Below the pieces are notes generated by a model that saw only the letters and a program-made list of their open reading frames with translations, was not told where the DNA came from and did no database searches. The position numbers and the translations under genes were made by a program. Positions 3,416 through 7,640 of a DNA stretch of 64,000 nucleotides are shown here, one piece after another. How positions within the stretch are numbered: position 1 is the first letter of the stretch; each line of letters opens with the position of its first letter. This DNA is from Candidatus Methanoplasma termitum (lineage in GTDB: Archaea > Thermoplasmatota > Thermoplasmata > Methanomassiliicoccales > Methanomethylophilaceae), in the NCBI RefSeq assembly GCF_000800805.1, contig NZ_CP010070.1, positions 1,364,001-1,428,000 of the forward strand, read 5' to 3'.

Positions 3416-3489
3416 GGGCCTGTAGCTCAGCTAGGTAGAGCGATCGACTCTTAATCGATCGGCCAAGGGTTCGAATCCCTTCAGGCCCG
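3416..3489 (+). tRNA. tRNA-Lys (CTT)
   Basis: A 74-nt cloverleaf. The acceptor stem GGGCCTG pairs with CAGGCCC and the discriminator is G. The anticodon loop CTCTTAA gives anticodon CTT. The T-arm GGGTTCGAATCCC is standard. CCA is not encoded. Its 3' end is the apparent target of repeated insertions downstream (imperfect copies at 5031, 5242 and 6301). A possible TATA box TTTTATCT lies about 35 nt upstream. Confidence 0.95.
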
Positions 3490-3492
3490 CTT
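3473..3492 (+). repeat. att-like core at the tRNA-Lys 3' end (reference copy)
   Basis: The last bases of the tRNA plus three bases of flank form a 20-nt segment that recurs imperfectly at 5031-5050 (18/20), in part at 5242-5254, and more loosely at 6301-6319 (15/19). A tRNA 3' end duplicated downstream in the same orientation is the usual footprint of site-specific integration. Confidence 0.6.
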
Positions 3493-3516
3493 TTACAAAA
3501 TCTTGTTTTTTCTGCA

Positions 3517-4779
3517 TTAGTCTTTTAAGCACCCTATCGGCACGACGTGTATCCCGTCCTTGCGTGTGTATGCATATTCTGTGGCTGTTACAACGGCCAG
3601 AAATGATGGTGAACCCATCGTCTCGCTCTCGACCTTTTCTTTTATTTTCAGAAGGTTGTTCGCCGCGTCTTCGATCATTCCGGCTCCGAGCTTGACTTCA
3701 ACCGCCCCCCACTTTCCGTTATGAAGATGAATTATTGCATCCGCTTCCAGCCCGTTGCGGTCGTGATAATGTAACACTTCGCCTCCCAGCGAACTTGCGT
3801 AGACCCTCAGATCCCTAATGACAAGTGATTCGAAAAGAAGTCCGAATGTTCTCGGATCGTTCATCAGGTCTCTCGCCGATGCGCCTAAAAAATATGCTGC
3901 AATGGCCGGATCCGTGAGATGTCTGGTGTCTGTCACTCTGATTGTTGTTCTGGAACGCAGATTCGGCGTCCATGCTGGCAGGTCATCTATGACGTGTATC
4001 TTTCTCAGAGCCTTTTCGTATGACCTCAGAGTATTGATGTGAACCGCCCCTTTATCCTTTTTTTGTAGGTCTGCCACAATAGTCGTATCCGTTGCCGATG
4101 TGGATATGTTCCTTGAAATCGACCTCAGCACCAGACGCATCTTGTCCCGGTCACGTTCCACTCCGTCTGCTGTCTTGACTTCCGATCCGAGTATGGTCTC
4201 GCAGTAACCTTTTATCTGATTATGTGCAACGGATGGGCTTTTTCCGACCGAATTCGGCCATCCTCCCCTTGTGATCCGTTCAGCAATATCCTCTAAGGAA
4301 AGACGAGAGATACCGGACACTTCTTTCCCCAAGAACATTTCCGATAGGGAAACTTCTCCTGTGGAATCACCCGATTCAAAAAGACTCATCGTATACATAC
4401 GCATCCTGCTGATCCTTCCAGCGCCGGAGTGCATTATCTTCGACTCGTCGATAGTGACGGACCCTGTCAATATATACAGGCCCTCCTCAGACAGCTTATC
4501 CACACTGAACCTCACCGCATCCCAGATGTTAGTTTCATCCTGCCACTCATCGATCAGTCTCGGTTTTTCCCCGTCCAAAAGCTGAGAAGGTTTGACGGCG
4601 GCCATCAGTTTGTATGTTTCTTTTTTATCAGGATCTTGCATATAGACGGCACTCTTTGCGACCTGCTCGGCGGTCGTGGTCTTGCCACAATATTTCGGCC
4701 CAACAATAGATACGGCACCGAATGCTTCCAACATATCTCTCAGCTGCCGATCCGCTATTCTAGGCCTGTAGTCTTTCAT
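3517..4779 (-). CDS. AAA-type ATPase with C-terminal DUF4143/PD-(D/E)XK-like region
   Basis: A 420-residue P-loop ATPase. Walker A is G27-PKYC-G32-K33-T34 and the Walker B region is PRLIDEWQ. The C-terminal part has the DUF4143 hallmark FGLLFESLVIRDLRVYA followed by GLEADAIIHLHNGKWGAVEV, a restriction-nuclease-like D...E-x-K pattern. The family is common in archaea and its role is unresolved. The frame could extend to 4956, but that part is translated tandem repeat. The ATG at 4779 has a TATA box (TTATATAT) about 26 nt upstream, so a leaderless start is chosen. It sits between tRNA-Lys and a copy of the tRNA's 3' end. Confidence 0.85.
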   Translation of the reverse strand: MKDYRPRIADRQLRDMLEAFGAVSIVGPKYCGKTTTAEQVAKSAVYMQDPDKKETYKLMAAVKPSQLLDGEKPRLIDEWQDETNIWDAVRFSVDKLSEEGLYILTGSVTIDESKIMHSGAGRISRMRMYTMSLFESGDSTGEVSLSEMFLGKEVSGISRLSLEDIAERITRGGWPNSVGKSPSVAHNQIKGYCETILGSEVKTADGVERDRDKMRLVLRSISRNISTSATDTTIVADLQKKDKGAVHINTLRSYEKALRKIHVIDDLPAWTPNLRSRTTIRVTDTRHLTDPAIAAYFLGASARDLMNDPRTFGLLFESLVIRDLRVYASSLGGEVLHYHDRNGLEADAIIHLHNGKWGAVEVKLGAGMIEDAANNLLKIKEKVESETMGSPSFLAVVTATEYAYTRKDGIHVVPIGCLKD

Positions 4780-4802
4780 ATATCTGTCATTAATATCCAG
4801 AC

Positions 4803-4812
4803 ATATATAATT
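4803..4812 (-). promoter_or_regulatory. TATA box of the first ATPase gene
   Basis: TTATATAT on the minus strand, centred about 26 nt before the ATG at 4779, fits a leaderless archaeal promoter. It lies directly next to the 23-bp repeat array, which would place the array just upstream of the core promoter. Confidence 0.5.
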
Positions 4813-4815
4813 ATT

Positions 4816-4942
4816 GTAATTGACAATGTTTTGTTGTTGTAATTGACAATGTTTTGTTGTTGTAATTGACAATGTTTTGTTGTTGTAATTGACAATGTTT
4901 TGTTGTTGTAATTGACAATGTTTTGTTGTTGTAATTGACAAT
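4816..4942. repeat. Five and a half tandem 23-bp direct repeats (iteron-like or operator array)
   Basis: Five perfect head-to-tail copies of a 23-bp unit beginning GTAATTGACAATG and ending TTGTTGTT start at 4816, 4839, 4862, 4885 and 4908; a sixth stops after 12 bases. Each unit carries TTGT-N5-ACAA, an imperfect dyad. There are no spacers, so it is not CRISPR. The array abuts the promoter of the ATPase gene. Either an operator for autoregulation or plasmid-type replication iterons would fit. Confidence 0.9.
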
Positions 4943-5030
4943 AAAATATTATGCATTTTGAAAATATTTTCTGACTGCGGAATGTGTATCCAATTAATGT
5001 TTAGTTGACTCCAAAATGGAGTCGAAGGTC

Positions 5031-5050
5031 AAATCCCTTCAGGCTCGCTT
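5031..5050 (+). repeat. Copy of the tRNA-Lys 3' end (att-like)
   Basis: This matches 18 of 20 bases of 3473-3492, with an unbroken AATCCCTTCAGGC core. The rest of a tRNA is absent, so this is a 3' fragment. With the intact tRNA it brackets the first ATPase gene and its repeat array, as expected for attL/attR of an integrated element. Confidence 0.65.
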
Positions 5051-5297: not shown

Positions 5298-6263
5298 TCA
5301 CTCAAGACGGCTTAACAGCCTGATACATAGGAATGAAAGATACGGCGACACAGTTTTCTTTTGCCCAAAGTCCCAATCCTTACATTTCTGATATACGGAT
5401 TCCGGAATGAACAATCCGTCCGGATCTTGTTTGCTTTTTATGATCTCGATCATTTCACAGAACCTTGTATCCTTCCTCGCACACTCGAACTTACTGAGAC
5501 AGTCTGTGACGCTCACGATGTCATACCACATGGCGGGAGCTTTCAGTTTTCTGAAATCCGTGCCTGTGTAGAACATGTACGGATGTCTTTCGAGACTGTT
5601 CTCCCAAAGGGACAGAATAGCATCTATCCCTCTTTTTGCGACATCGCTTTTTCTGTATTCATCGATCTCTGCGTAAAGATTCAGCATCGAAAGCGTTGCA
5701 AAGGGGCAGCAGTCTCCTTTCCGTCCGGGTCCTCTGAATGAGCCGTGCTCTTCGGAGACCGAACAGGGGAACCCTTGTTCGTTGATCAGTGTCGTTAAAT
5801 GATCGACCCCCTGTTTTACATGCTCTCTGTAGTCGATTTTGGCGAGGAGAAGCGCACGGAGCAGCAAAGGTGCGTCGCACAAGCACCATCCGAACACATC
5901 CTCGCCCTTTCCGCCGTAATGTTTAGGGATGTTGGTCTTGGACTTATAAACTCCAAATTTATCCTTGTGGCTCATTATCTGTTTCACTGCGTTCTCTATT
6001 TCCGTGATCTCTGTGTTGAAGCCATTGTCGAGTAGGAACAGAAGCTGATTTATCGGGAGATCGGGCGCTTTGTGATTGCTTACCAGTATACCATGAAAGT
6101 CTGAAACGCCTTTGAGGTACGCTCGGATCCTCTTGTCTCTCAGTGCTTCACTTTTCAGTTCTGATAACATCTTTTTATCTTCATTCAGAAGATTATGTCT
6201 TATTGAGAATTGAAGCCACGGCTCACTTACAGATAGAAGCTTTTCCGTCCTGAGATCGCCCAT
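5298..6263 (-). CDS. Alpha/alpha-toroid (prenyltransferase/squalene-cyclase-like) protein
   Basis: A 321-residue, probably cytoplasmic protein. It has spaced motifs resembling the helical-toroid repeats of prenyltransferases and terpene cyclases: DVFGWCLCDAPLLLRALLLA, INEQGFPCSV, GPGRKGDCCPFATLSMLNLY, MWYDIVSVTDCLS and KQDPDGLFIPESV. Conserved Cys and His could bind a metal, but no cyclase DXDD is seen, so enzymatic activity is doubtful. A TATA-like stretch near 6283-6295 fits a leaderless ATG at 6263. It sits in the tRNA-Lys accessory zone between tRNA-end remnants. Confidence 0.7.
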   Translation of the reverse strand: MGDLRTEKLLSVSEPWLQFSIRHNLLNEDKKMLSELKSEALRDKRIRAYLKGVSDFHGILVSNHKAPDLPINQLLFLLDNGFNTEITEIENAVKQIMSHKDKFGVYKSKTNIPKHYGGKGEDVFGWCLCDAPLLLRALLLAKIDYREHVKQGVDHLTTLINEQGFPCSVSEEHGSFRGPGRKGDCCPFATLSMLNLYAEIDEYRKSDVAKRGIDAILSLWENSLERHPYMFYTGTDFRKLKAPAMWYDIVSVTDCLSKFECARKDTRFCEMIEIIKSKQDPDGLFIPESVYQKCKDWDFGQKKTVSPYLSFLCIRLLSRLE

Positions 6264-6300
6264 GTGATTATGTACCGTTTGTAACTATAAAAATATGGTA

Positions 6301-6319
6301 AGTCCCTTCGATCCCGCTT
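6301..6319 (+). repeat. Divergent copy of the tRNA-Lys 3' end
   Basis: This matches 15 of 19 bases of the tRNA-Lys end: TCCCTTC and CCCGCTT are conserved and the middle differs. It lies between the toroid gene and the second ATPase gene and, like the copy at 5031, is followed by TTGT or GT. It may be an older attachment-site scar. Confidence 0.4.
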
Positions 6320-6365
6320 GTTATCCGTTTTCCGGACGACTTGGATTCATTTTGCAGAACTGTTG

Positions 6366-7585: not shown

Positions 7586-7601
7586 TAGGATATCTTTCCT
7601 A
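7586..7601. promoter_or_regulatory. Palindromic operator-like site 1 upstream of the second ATPase
   Basis: TAGGATATCTTTCCTA is an inverted repeat (TAGGA...TCCTA) directly upstream of the TATA box. A near-identical site follows 39 bp away, centre to centre, at 7625-7640. The position suits a transcription factor acting on the ATPase promoter. Confidence 0.6.
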
Positions 7602-7624
7602 AAAGTTTTAAAAAATGAAAAAGA

Positions 7625-7640
7625 TAGGAAATGTTTCCTA
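7625..7640. promoter_or_regulatory. Palindromic operator-like site 2 upstream of the second ATPase
   Basis: TAGGAAATGTTTCCTA has perfect TAGGAAA/TTTCCTA arms around a 2-nt centre. Its 39-bp spacing from site 1 is close to four helical turns, so two dimers would bind the same face of the DNA. Confidence 0.6.

Follow-up and report, generated by a model that had tools for sequence, protein, structure and literature searches.

A 23-bp tandem array at the promoter of a PDC-S01-type ATPase gene in Candidatus Methanoplasma termitum is probably the operator of that gene

Tandem direct repeats of ~22 bp lie near the gene of the initiator that binds them in iteron-Rep plasmids. A comparable arrangement is found in the archaeon Candidatus Methanoplasma termitum, in which an array of 23-bp repeats abuts the promoter of a gene for an ATPase with a nuclease-type domain. 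We analyzed this array in a stretch of 64,000 nucleotides (contig NZ_CP010070.1, positions 1,364,001 to 1,428,000), referred to here as the window, together with the upstream regions of genes related to that of the ATPase. The likeness to iteron-Rep plasmids is in the placement of the repeats near a gene; the arrays of the window family differ in that they are locked to the promoter and show no sign of origin function. A second comparison is with RptR, a repressor of a phage-defense island that binds direct repeats in the defense promoter (PMC12255303). As described there, RptR is small, serves solely as a repressor and has a 6-bp palindrome, whereas in the window family the candidate effector is itself the putative reader, and the pitch of the array is specific to each protein clade.

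The ATPase belongs to a family that has been described, under the name PDC-S01 (phage defense candidate), as an ATPase fused to a PD-(D/E)XK domain. According to the accessible text of PMC12988326, PDC-S01 is the fourth most common defense of prokaryotes (9986 in archaea and 29,494 in bacteria), and most candidates of this sort still await validation. In rumen genomes PDC-S01 was the most frequent individual locus, as given in the accessible part of PMC13356809. The words “tandem” and “promoter” do not occur in the accessible text of PMC12988326, and arrays are mentioned neither there nor in that of PMC13356809. Our searches of the open-access literature returned no report on the control of the family, on the DNA it touches, or on its arrays. 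The window protein matches the PDC-S01 models, and the putative operator array is the feature added to PDC-S01 here.

Analysis with Tandem Repeats Finder (TRF) placed the window array at 4814–4942, with a period of 23 bp, 5.6 copies, 100% matches, no indels and a score of 258. It is one of two tandem arrays that TRF reported in the whole window, the other consisting of two imperfect copies. A first-pass annotation of the window, made from the letters alone, had described five perfect units and a half unit, each unit with a TTGT-N5-ACAA dyad, ending just upstream of a TATA box, and all of this was borne out. The dyad is present in every unit as TTGT-AATTG-ACAA, and on the minus strand the end of the array at 4814 is followed by TTATATAT at 4810–4803 and by the start codon at 4779. 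The spacing from TATA box to start codon is that expected for a leaderless archaeal gene. Exact matches to the 13-mer TTGT-AATTG-ACAA occur in the home genome at these six places only and, because it is thus confined, the array has no other obvious target there; with one mismatch allowed, the genome holds three scattered single matches, the same number as for a reversed control pattern. The exact pair of units had no match in collections of genome contigs and viral contigs, although the home genome is possibly outside these collections. The perfect identity of the copies may reflect recent expansion or strong selection.

The assignment of the adjoining gene to the DUF4143-type ATPases was also confirmed, with both PF13635 (89 bits, cut-off 28.1) and the AAA_14 family PF13173 (47.7 bits, cut-off 27) scoring above the curated Pfam cut-offs, and with a PADLOC match to PDLC04790 (E 5.2e-60) that spans residues 1–418. 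A mechanical open reading frame at 3517–4956 was rejected as the extent of the gene, as it would run through the array and the family alignment sets the start at 4779. An AlphaFold2 model of the protein has a pLDDT (predicted local distance difference test) of 94 and a pTM (predicted template modeling score) of 0.93. Helices at residues 211–223, 231–239 and 248–260 of the model have the look of a winged helix, and residue 249 (codon 4033–4035) is at the N-terminus of the third, the recognition helix. Residue 341 (codon 3757–3759) lies in the DUF4143 part, slightly N-terminal of the conserved D347. Among 48 clade C proteins (the clade of the window protein, see below), no variation occurs at E317, D347 or E361, K363 is kept in at least 90%, and the predicted nuclease site therefore looks intact.

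Comparisons of structure placed the ATPase and winged-helix part nearest to PABY2304 (2qen) and SSO1545 (2fna), with VIA Z scores of 15.0 and 14.3, followed in the VIA list by NLRs and CED-4 with Z scores of about 11–12; a VIA match to ORC (7tjf) covered 120 residues. The VIA list hardly reaches past residue 329 and is uninformative on the nuclease-type domain. Second rank in the Foldseek list was held by Cdc6/Orc1 bound to origin DNA (2qby; E 4.6e-6, template modeling (TM) score 0.29), and Card1 and Cdn1 were also listed, with low TM scores. By sequence, no PDB chain matched the clade C profile. PABY2304, SSO1545 and STAND/NLR proteins resemble the window family in the ATPase and winged-helix fold, and Orc1/Cdc6 may do so beyond the ATPase core; the window family differs from them by its additional nuclease-type domain. 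We know of no origin or resistosome function in the window family.

The window gene is one of 11 DUF4143 genes in the home genome, a single 1.49-Mb contig, and by inspection nearly all of these have repeats of their own upstream, with differing sequences. In a survey of this genome and 40 relatives, DUF4143 family genes were present in 27 of the 41 genomes, and expansion was extreme in two 1.6-Mb genomes of the same genus (G001 and G003), with 48 and 49 matches. From 186 distinct family genes we kept the 164 in which a P-loop was found, with at least 330 aa beyond it and enough upstream DNA. Their tree resolved an outgroup of 13 genes and clades C (49 genes), B (40) and A (62) as monophyletic groups; support was 0.99, 0.55, 1.0 and 0.95, respectively, clade C being weakly supported as one group. 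All three clades correspond to PDC-S01 in PADLOC (A, PDLC04787, 1e-139; B, PDLC04786, 1e-156; C, PDLC04790).

The mean self-match of the upstream regions peaked at lags of 23, 46 and 69 in clade C, 33 and 66 in clade B, and 39 and 40 in clade A. Individual genes were scored as periodic if they beat all 100 dinucleotide shuffles of their own upstream region. A period of 22–24 bp was detected in this way at 46 of the 49 clade C genes, compared to none of 40 in clade B, 4 of 62 in clade A, 1 of 13 in the outgroup and none of 81 control genes. A period of 31–34 bp was typical of clade B (31/40; C 3/49, A 3/62, outgroup 0/13, controls 2/81), and one of 38–43 bp of clade A (38/62; C 0/49, B 1/40, outgroup 0/13, controls 3/81). 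Two of the three controls positive at 38–43 bp (at L015 and L016) have an intergenic region in common with a family gene, and two off-target period ranges gave only 0–3 genes per group. Based on these counts, the period of the array tracks the clade of the protein. The first-pass annotation had named the absence of any array at homologous genes as grounds for refutation; most of the 164 archaeal genes have an array, and so do bacterial relatives. The nearest relative of the window gene (L049, 78% identity) has a similar array.

When bacterial and archaeal genomes were searched with the clade C alignment, at least 592 encoding stretches matched and the best 80 were kept; by their record titles, these came from Bacteroidota, Bacillota, Actinomycetota, Spirochaetota and archaea, and viral contigs provided eight more. 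Some of these 88 loci duplicate genes already in the set or one another (such as L208 with L049, and L289 with L295). An array was significant in 76 of the 85 that could be examined, and its period was 23, 24 or 46 bp in 73, a count that includes one wrongly anchored locus (L243). In bacterial relatives of the other clades the period was 32, 33 or 66 bp in 15 of 25 examined for clade B, and 39–42 bp in 14 of 28 for clade A. We also noted two near-identical pairs in Collinsella aerofaciens (L326–L329; 99.8% and 96% protein identity), in which the upstream layout is alike within each pair.

One common register, GCCAAATNNCNNAATAAAANNNN, fits the units of 111 of 129 clade C genes, and this consensus is common across phyla. 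In this register, CAA at positions 3–5 and A at position 13 are almost fixed, and positions 7–12 are variable. The consensus is not palindromic, so the TTGT/ACAA dyad is peculiar to the window member; by eye, many clade A units are dyads and clade C units are not. We compared the units with the protein columns in 86 of the 111 chains, in which units were at least 60% alike (C_L121, C_L060 and C_L064 were barred as poor chains). Mutual information (MI) was highest for residue 249 with unit positions 11 and 12 and for residue 341 with positions 1 and 2, with Z scores of 10–12, followed by residue 247 with position 12 (Z 7.0). Asparagine at 249 goes with C at position 12 (20/22), lysine with G at position 11 (20/21), glutamate with GG (9/12), aspartate with CG (8/14) and proline with AA (4/4); histidine at 247 goes with AC (11/11), and lysine at 341 with GC at positions 1–2 (43/51). 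These pairings look like a code, and the rules are chemically sensible, as in the case of K249 with G at position 11.

The same columns were prominent in a held-out set, in which 83 candidates were reduced to 39 by requiring <90% identity both among themselves and to the first set; 34 of these had an array, and 29 were used. K249 occurred with G at position 11 in all eight cases, and of 9614 pairs ranked by MI, 341 with 2 was second, 249 with 11 fourth, 230 with 7 27th and 247 with 12 74th. When rules derived from the first set were applied to the 29, residue 249 was the best of ~418 columns for positions 9–12, as was 341 for position 2, and the 249 rule was correct for 66% (position 11) and 72% (position 12) of proteins, compared to 52% and 45% for prediction from the nearest-neighbor protein. 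After the pooled 115 proteins had been thinned to 43 with <60% identity, residue 249 led the 376 columns for positions 11 and 12, as did 341 for positions 1 and 2, and none of 2000 permutations reached the signal of either residue. As residues 249 and 341 covary with positions of the unit, there is good evidence, at the level of sequence, that the ATPase itself is the reader of the 23-bp unit.

The arrays are also placed in a regular manner with respect to the promoter. The element TANNTTTG, which we take to be a Bacteroidota-type -7 element, was located close downstream of the array in 35 of 109 arrayed clade C genes (L208–L397), whereas shuffling gave an expectation of 6.75. Measured from position 1 of the terminal unit or half unit, this element lay at a distance of 16–24 in six genes, 29–31 in seven, 41–42 in eight, 50–53 in 13 and 62 in one, with clusters near 20, 30, 41 and 52. 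The Rayleigh R at 10.5 bp was 0.78, with a p value that is too small as the test ignores the kinship of the genes. In the window, the half unit that holds the read positions adjoins the TATA box. That a helical register is kept at several distances suggests that the transcription machinery is contacted or obstructed, and does not point to an origin. By analogy, the set of permitted distances resembles that of activators that touch RNA polymerase, and looped or occluding repressors would fit too.

Taken together, the arrays, their clade-set period, the covariation and the helical register to the promoter indicate that the window array is most likely the cognate autoregulatory operator of the adjoining ATPase gene. 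We hypothesize that ATPase molecules line up along the array, one next to another on its units, forming an oligomer on the DNA. The recognition helix of the winged helix, mainly through residue 249, would read unit positions ~9–12, and the part of the nuclease-type domain around residue 341 would read positions 1–2. A row of bound ATPase that covers or adjoins the upstream core promoter element could then govern how fast its own gene is transcribed. Each clade would bind at its own pitch, ~23, 33 and 40 bp being equivalent to about two, three and four helical turns, and unit sequences specific to each paralogue may keep the 10–50 paralogues in a cell from cross-talk. Autoregulation had already been proposed by the first-pass annotation, and the family-wide arrays and residue–base covariation lend it strong support.

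Several results weigh against this explanation. No clade period was detected in 3 of 49 clade C, 9 of 40 clade B and 24 of 62 clade A genes, and L050, a relative with ~72% identity to the window gene, has no significant periodicity. In the held-out set, 249 with 12 ranked only 43rd and 341 with 1 628th of the 9614 pairs, and 232 with 10 was not replicated (7486th). Among 25 representatives with <55% identity, only 249 with 12 (4 of 5000 permutations) and 230 with 7 (22 of 5000) stood out. In clade B, covariation analysis of a set in which 51 of 65 arrays were at 31–34 bp revealed no outstanding pair.

The first-pass annotation had also raised the possibility that the repeats are iterons of a mini-replicon with the ATPase as its replication or partition protein. 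In such a reading, the ATPase would be a replication initiator and the array its origin. This role might be expected from tandem direct repeats adjoining an initiator-like gene, from the second rank of origin-bound Cdc6/Orc1 in Foldseek, and from the occurrence of relatives on plasmids and viral contigs. However, an origin has no need of a helical lock to the core promoter, up to 48–49 family genes occur in one 1.6-Mb genome, and the window gene is chromosomal. The proposal gained no positive support, promoter-locked and phased arrays at single chromosomal genes fit an operator better, and we consider iterons quite improbable. It is very unlikely that the array is read by some other regulator, with the ATPase as the regulated gene only, since the covarying residues are those of the ATPase, first among its columns, and the period follows the ATPase clade across two domains of life. 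Neutral slippage near an AT-rich promoter would account for a short unit in perfect copies. It does not explain why the periods are specific to the clades when 0–3 of 81 control genes are positive, nor why a clade consensus is common across phyla, and so can be set aside as scarcely credible.

The remaining alternative, which we regard as unlikely, is that the array is the cleavage or recombination substrate of a self-targeting nuclease in a mobile unit that inserts at the 3' ends of tRNA genes. The conserved nuclease-type residues and the covariation of residue 341 with the unit are in keeping with this, as is the finding that copies of tRNA 3' ends bracket the window unit and three others of 139 examined (L015 with tRNA-Arg, and L157 and L170 with an end resembling the one of the window tRNA-Lys). 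In addition, in a descriptive tally, tRNAs near family genes made up 20 rows for the 164 genes, including one row that concerns an outgroup gene; in most, the 3' end points toward the unit. Yet the array is on one side only, and flanking repeats are missing from most of the 139 units, one further unit having a 27-base flanking repeat with no likeness to a tRNA. A match to the tyrosine recombinase family PF00589 was absent from the home genome, the unit included, and L049 had no tRNA within the limits used. Taken by itself, the earlier suggestion of a mobile unit is supported in part: the bracketing by tRNA-end copies holds, and an integrase of this family is missing from the genome. From their sequences, the units seem occasionally to insert at the ends of tRNA genes.

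During the survey, we noted several unusual arrangements of arrays. At L012, a clade B gene is separated from its 33-bp array (4539–4631) by ~1.1 kb with two transposase-like open reading frames (3426–4465, IS630-like by eye), a natural separation of gene and array. L011 has an orphan 33-bp array (6035–6120) that is similar in sequence to the array of a nearby clade B gene. This orphan array is located behind a clade C gene, on either side of which the 3' end of a membrane-protein-like gene is duplicated. At L118 and L193, clade A and clade C genes are head to head with the clade C array in the shared upstream region, and this array may serve two genes. A long CTCA run upstream of the clade A gene at L099 is a simple repeat unlike the operator arrays.

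The window contains a second gene of the family, from clade A, with an array of its own (Table 1). Between both ATPase genes is a gene of 321 aa (5298–6263) with no match in Pfam, PADLOC or NCBIfam. A degenerate tRNA-end-like stretch near 6300–6320 adjoins this gene, and was too degenerate to be counted as a third tRNA-end copy. Rfam searches gave no family match other than tRNA.

Table 1. Positions of the array, the ATPase genes and associated features in the window
Feature	Position	Strand	Basis or remark
23-bp tandem array, putative operator	4814–4942	-	TRF; clade C register; coordinates from sequence
Five full units, then the promoter-proximal half unit	Clade-register position 1 at 4939, 4916, 4893, 4870, 4847		
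Terminal half unit GTCAATTACAA	4814–4824	-	Unit positions 1–11, almost all of the protein-covarying stretch
Putative TATA box TTATATAT	4803–4810	-	24–31 nt before the start codon; inferred from archaeal promoter geometry
ATPase gene, 420 aa; AAA_14, winged helix, DUF4143 (PD-(D/E)XK-type)	3517–4779	-	PADLOC PDC-S01 model PDLC04790
Winged-helix-type three-helix segment, residues 211–260	4000–4149	-	Secondary structure of AlphaFold2 model
Nuclease-type domain, residues 317–363	3691–3831	-	Conservation and covariation
tRNA-Lys(CTT), oriented 3' end to 3' end with the ATPase gene	3416–3490	+	tRNA search, Rfam
Copy of the tRNA-Lys 3' end (3474–3492) beyond the array, possible insertion scar	5032–5050	+	18/19 identical
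Second family member, clade A (PDLC04787), 399 aa	6366–7565	-	Pfam, PADLOC
Array of the clade A gene, two TAGGA-N6-TCCTA-like dyad units 39 bp apart	7586–7640	-	

An operator array at a promoter is of a known kind; what is new is a putatively self-read array with a clade-specific pitch in a very common family of defense candidates. As residue 341 is near D347 in the nuclease-type domain, the bound protein would hold an intact nuclease at its own promoter. This leads to a further possibility, which is tentative and on present data doubtful, that the array is the self-tag of an immune nuclease as well as an operator. The ATPase-nuclease would be parked in an inactive state on its private array, and an invasion that strips or titrates it would free the nuclease and shift transcription of its gene. 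If so, the fast-diverging and non-cross-reacting pairs of protein and array would constitute many independent tripwires per cell.

For the family as a whole, most members gain a candidate cognate DNA site and a checkable residue-to-base rule, and the clade-specific pitches constrain how the protein can assemble on DNA. For annotators, the arrays mark the true promoter and start of family genes. Overall, nature offers in this family dozens of protein–operator pairs that may be orthogonal.
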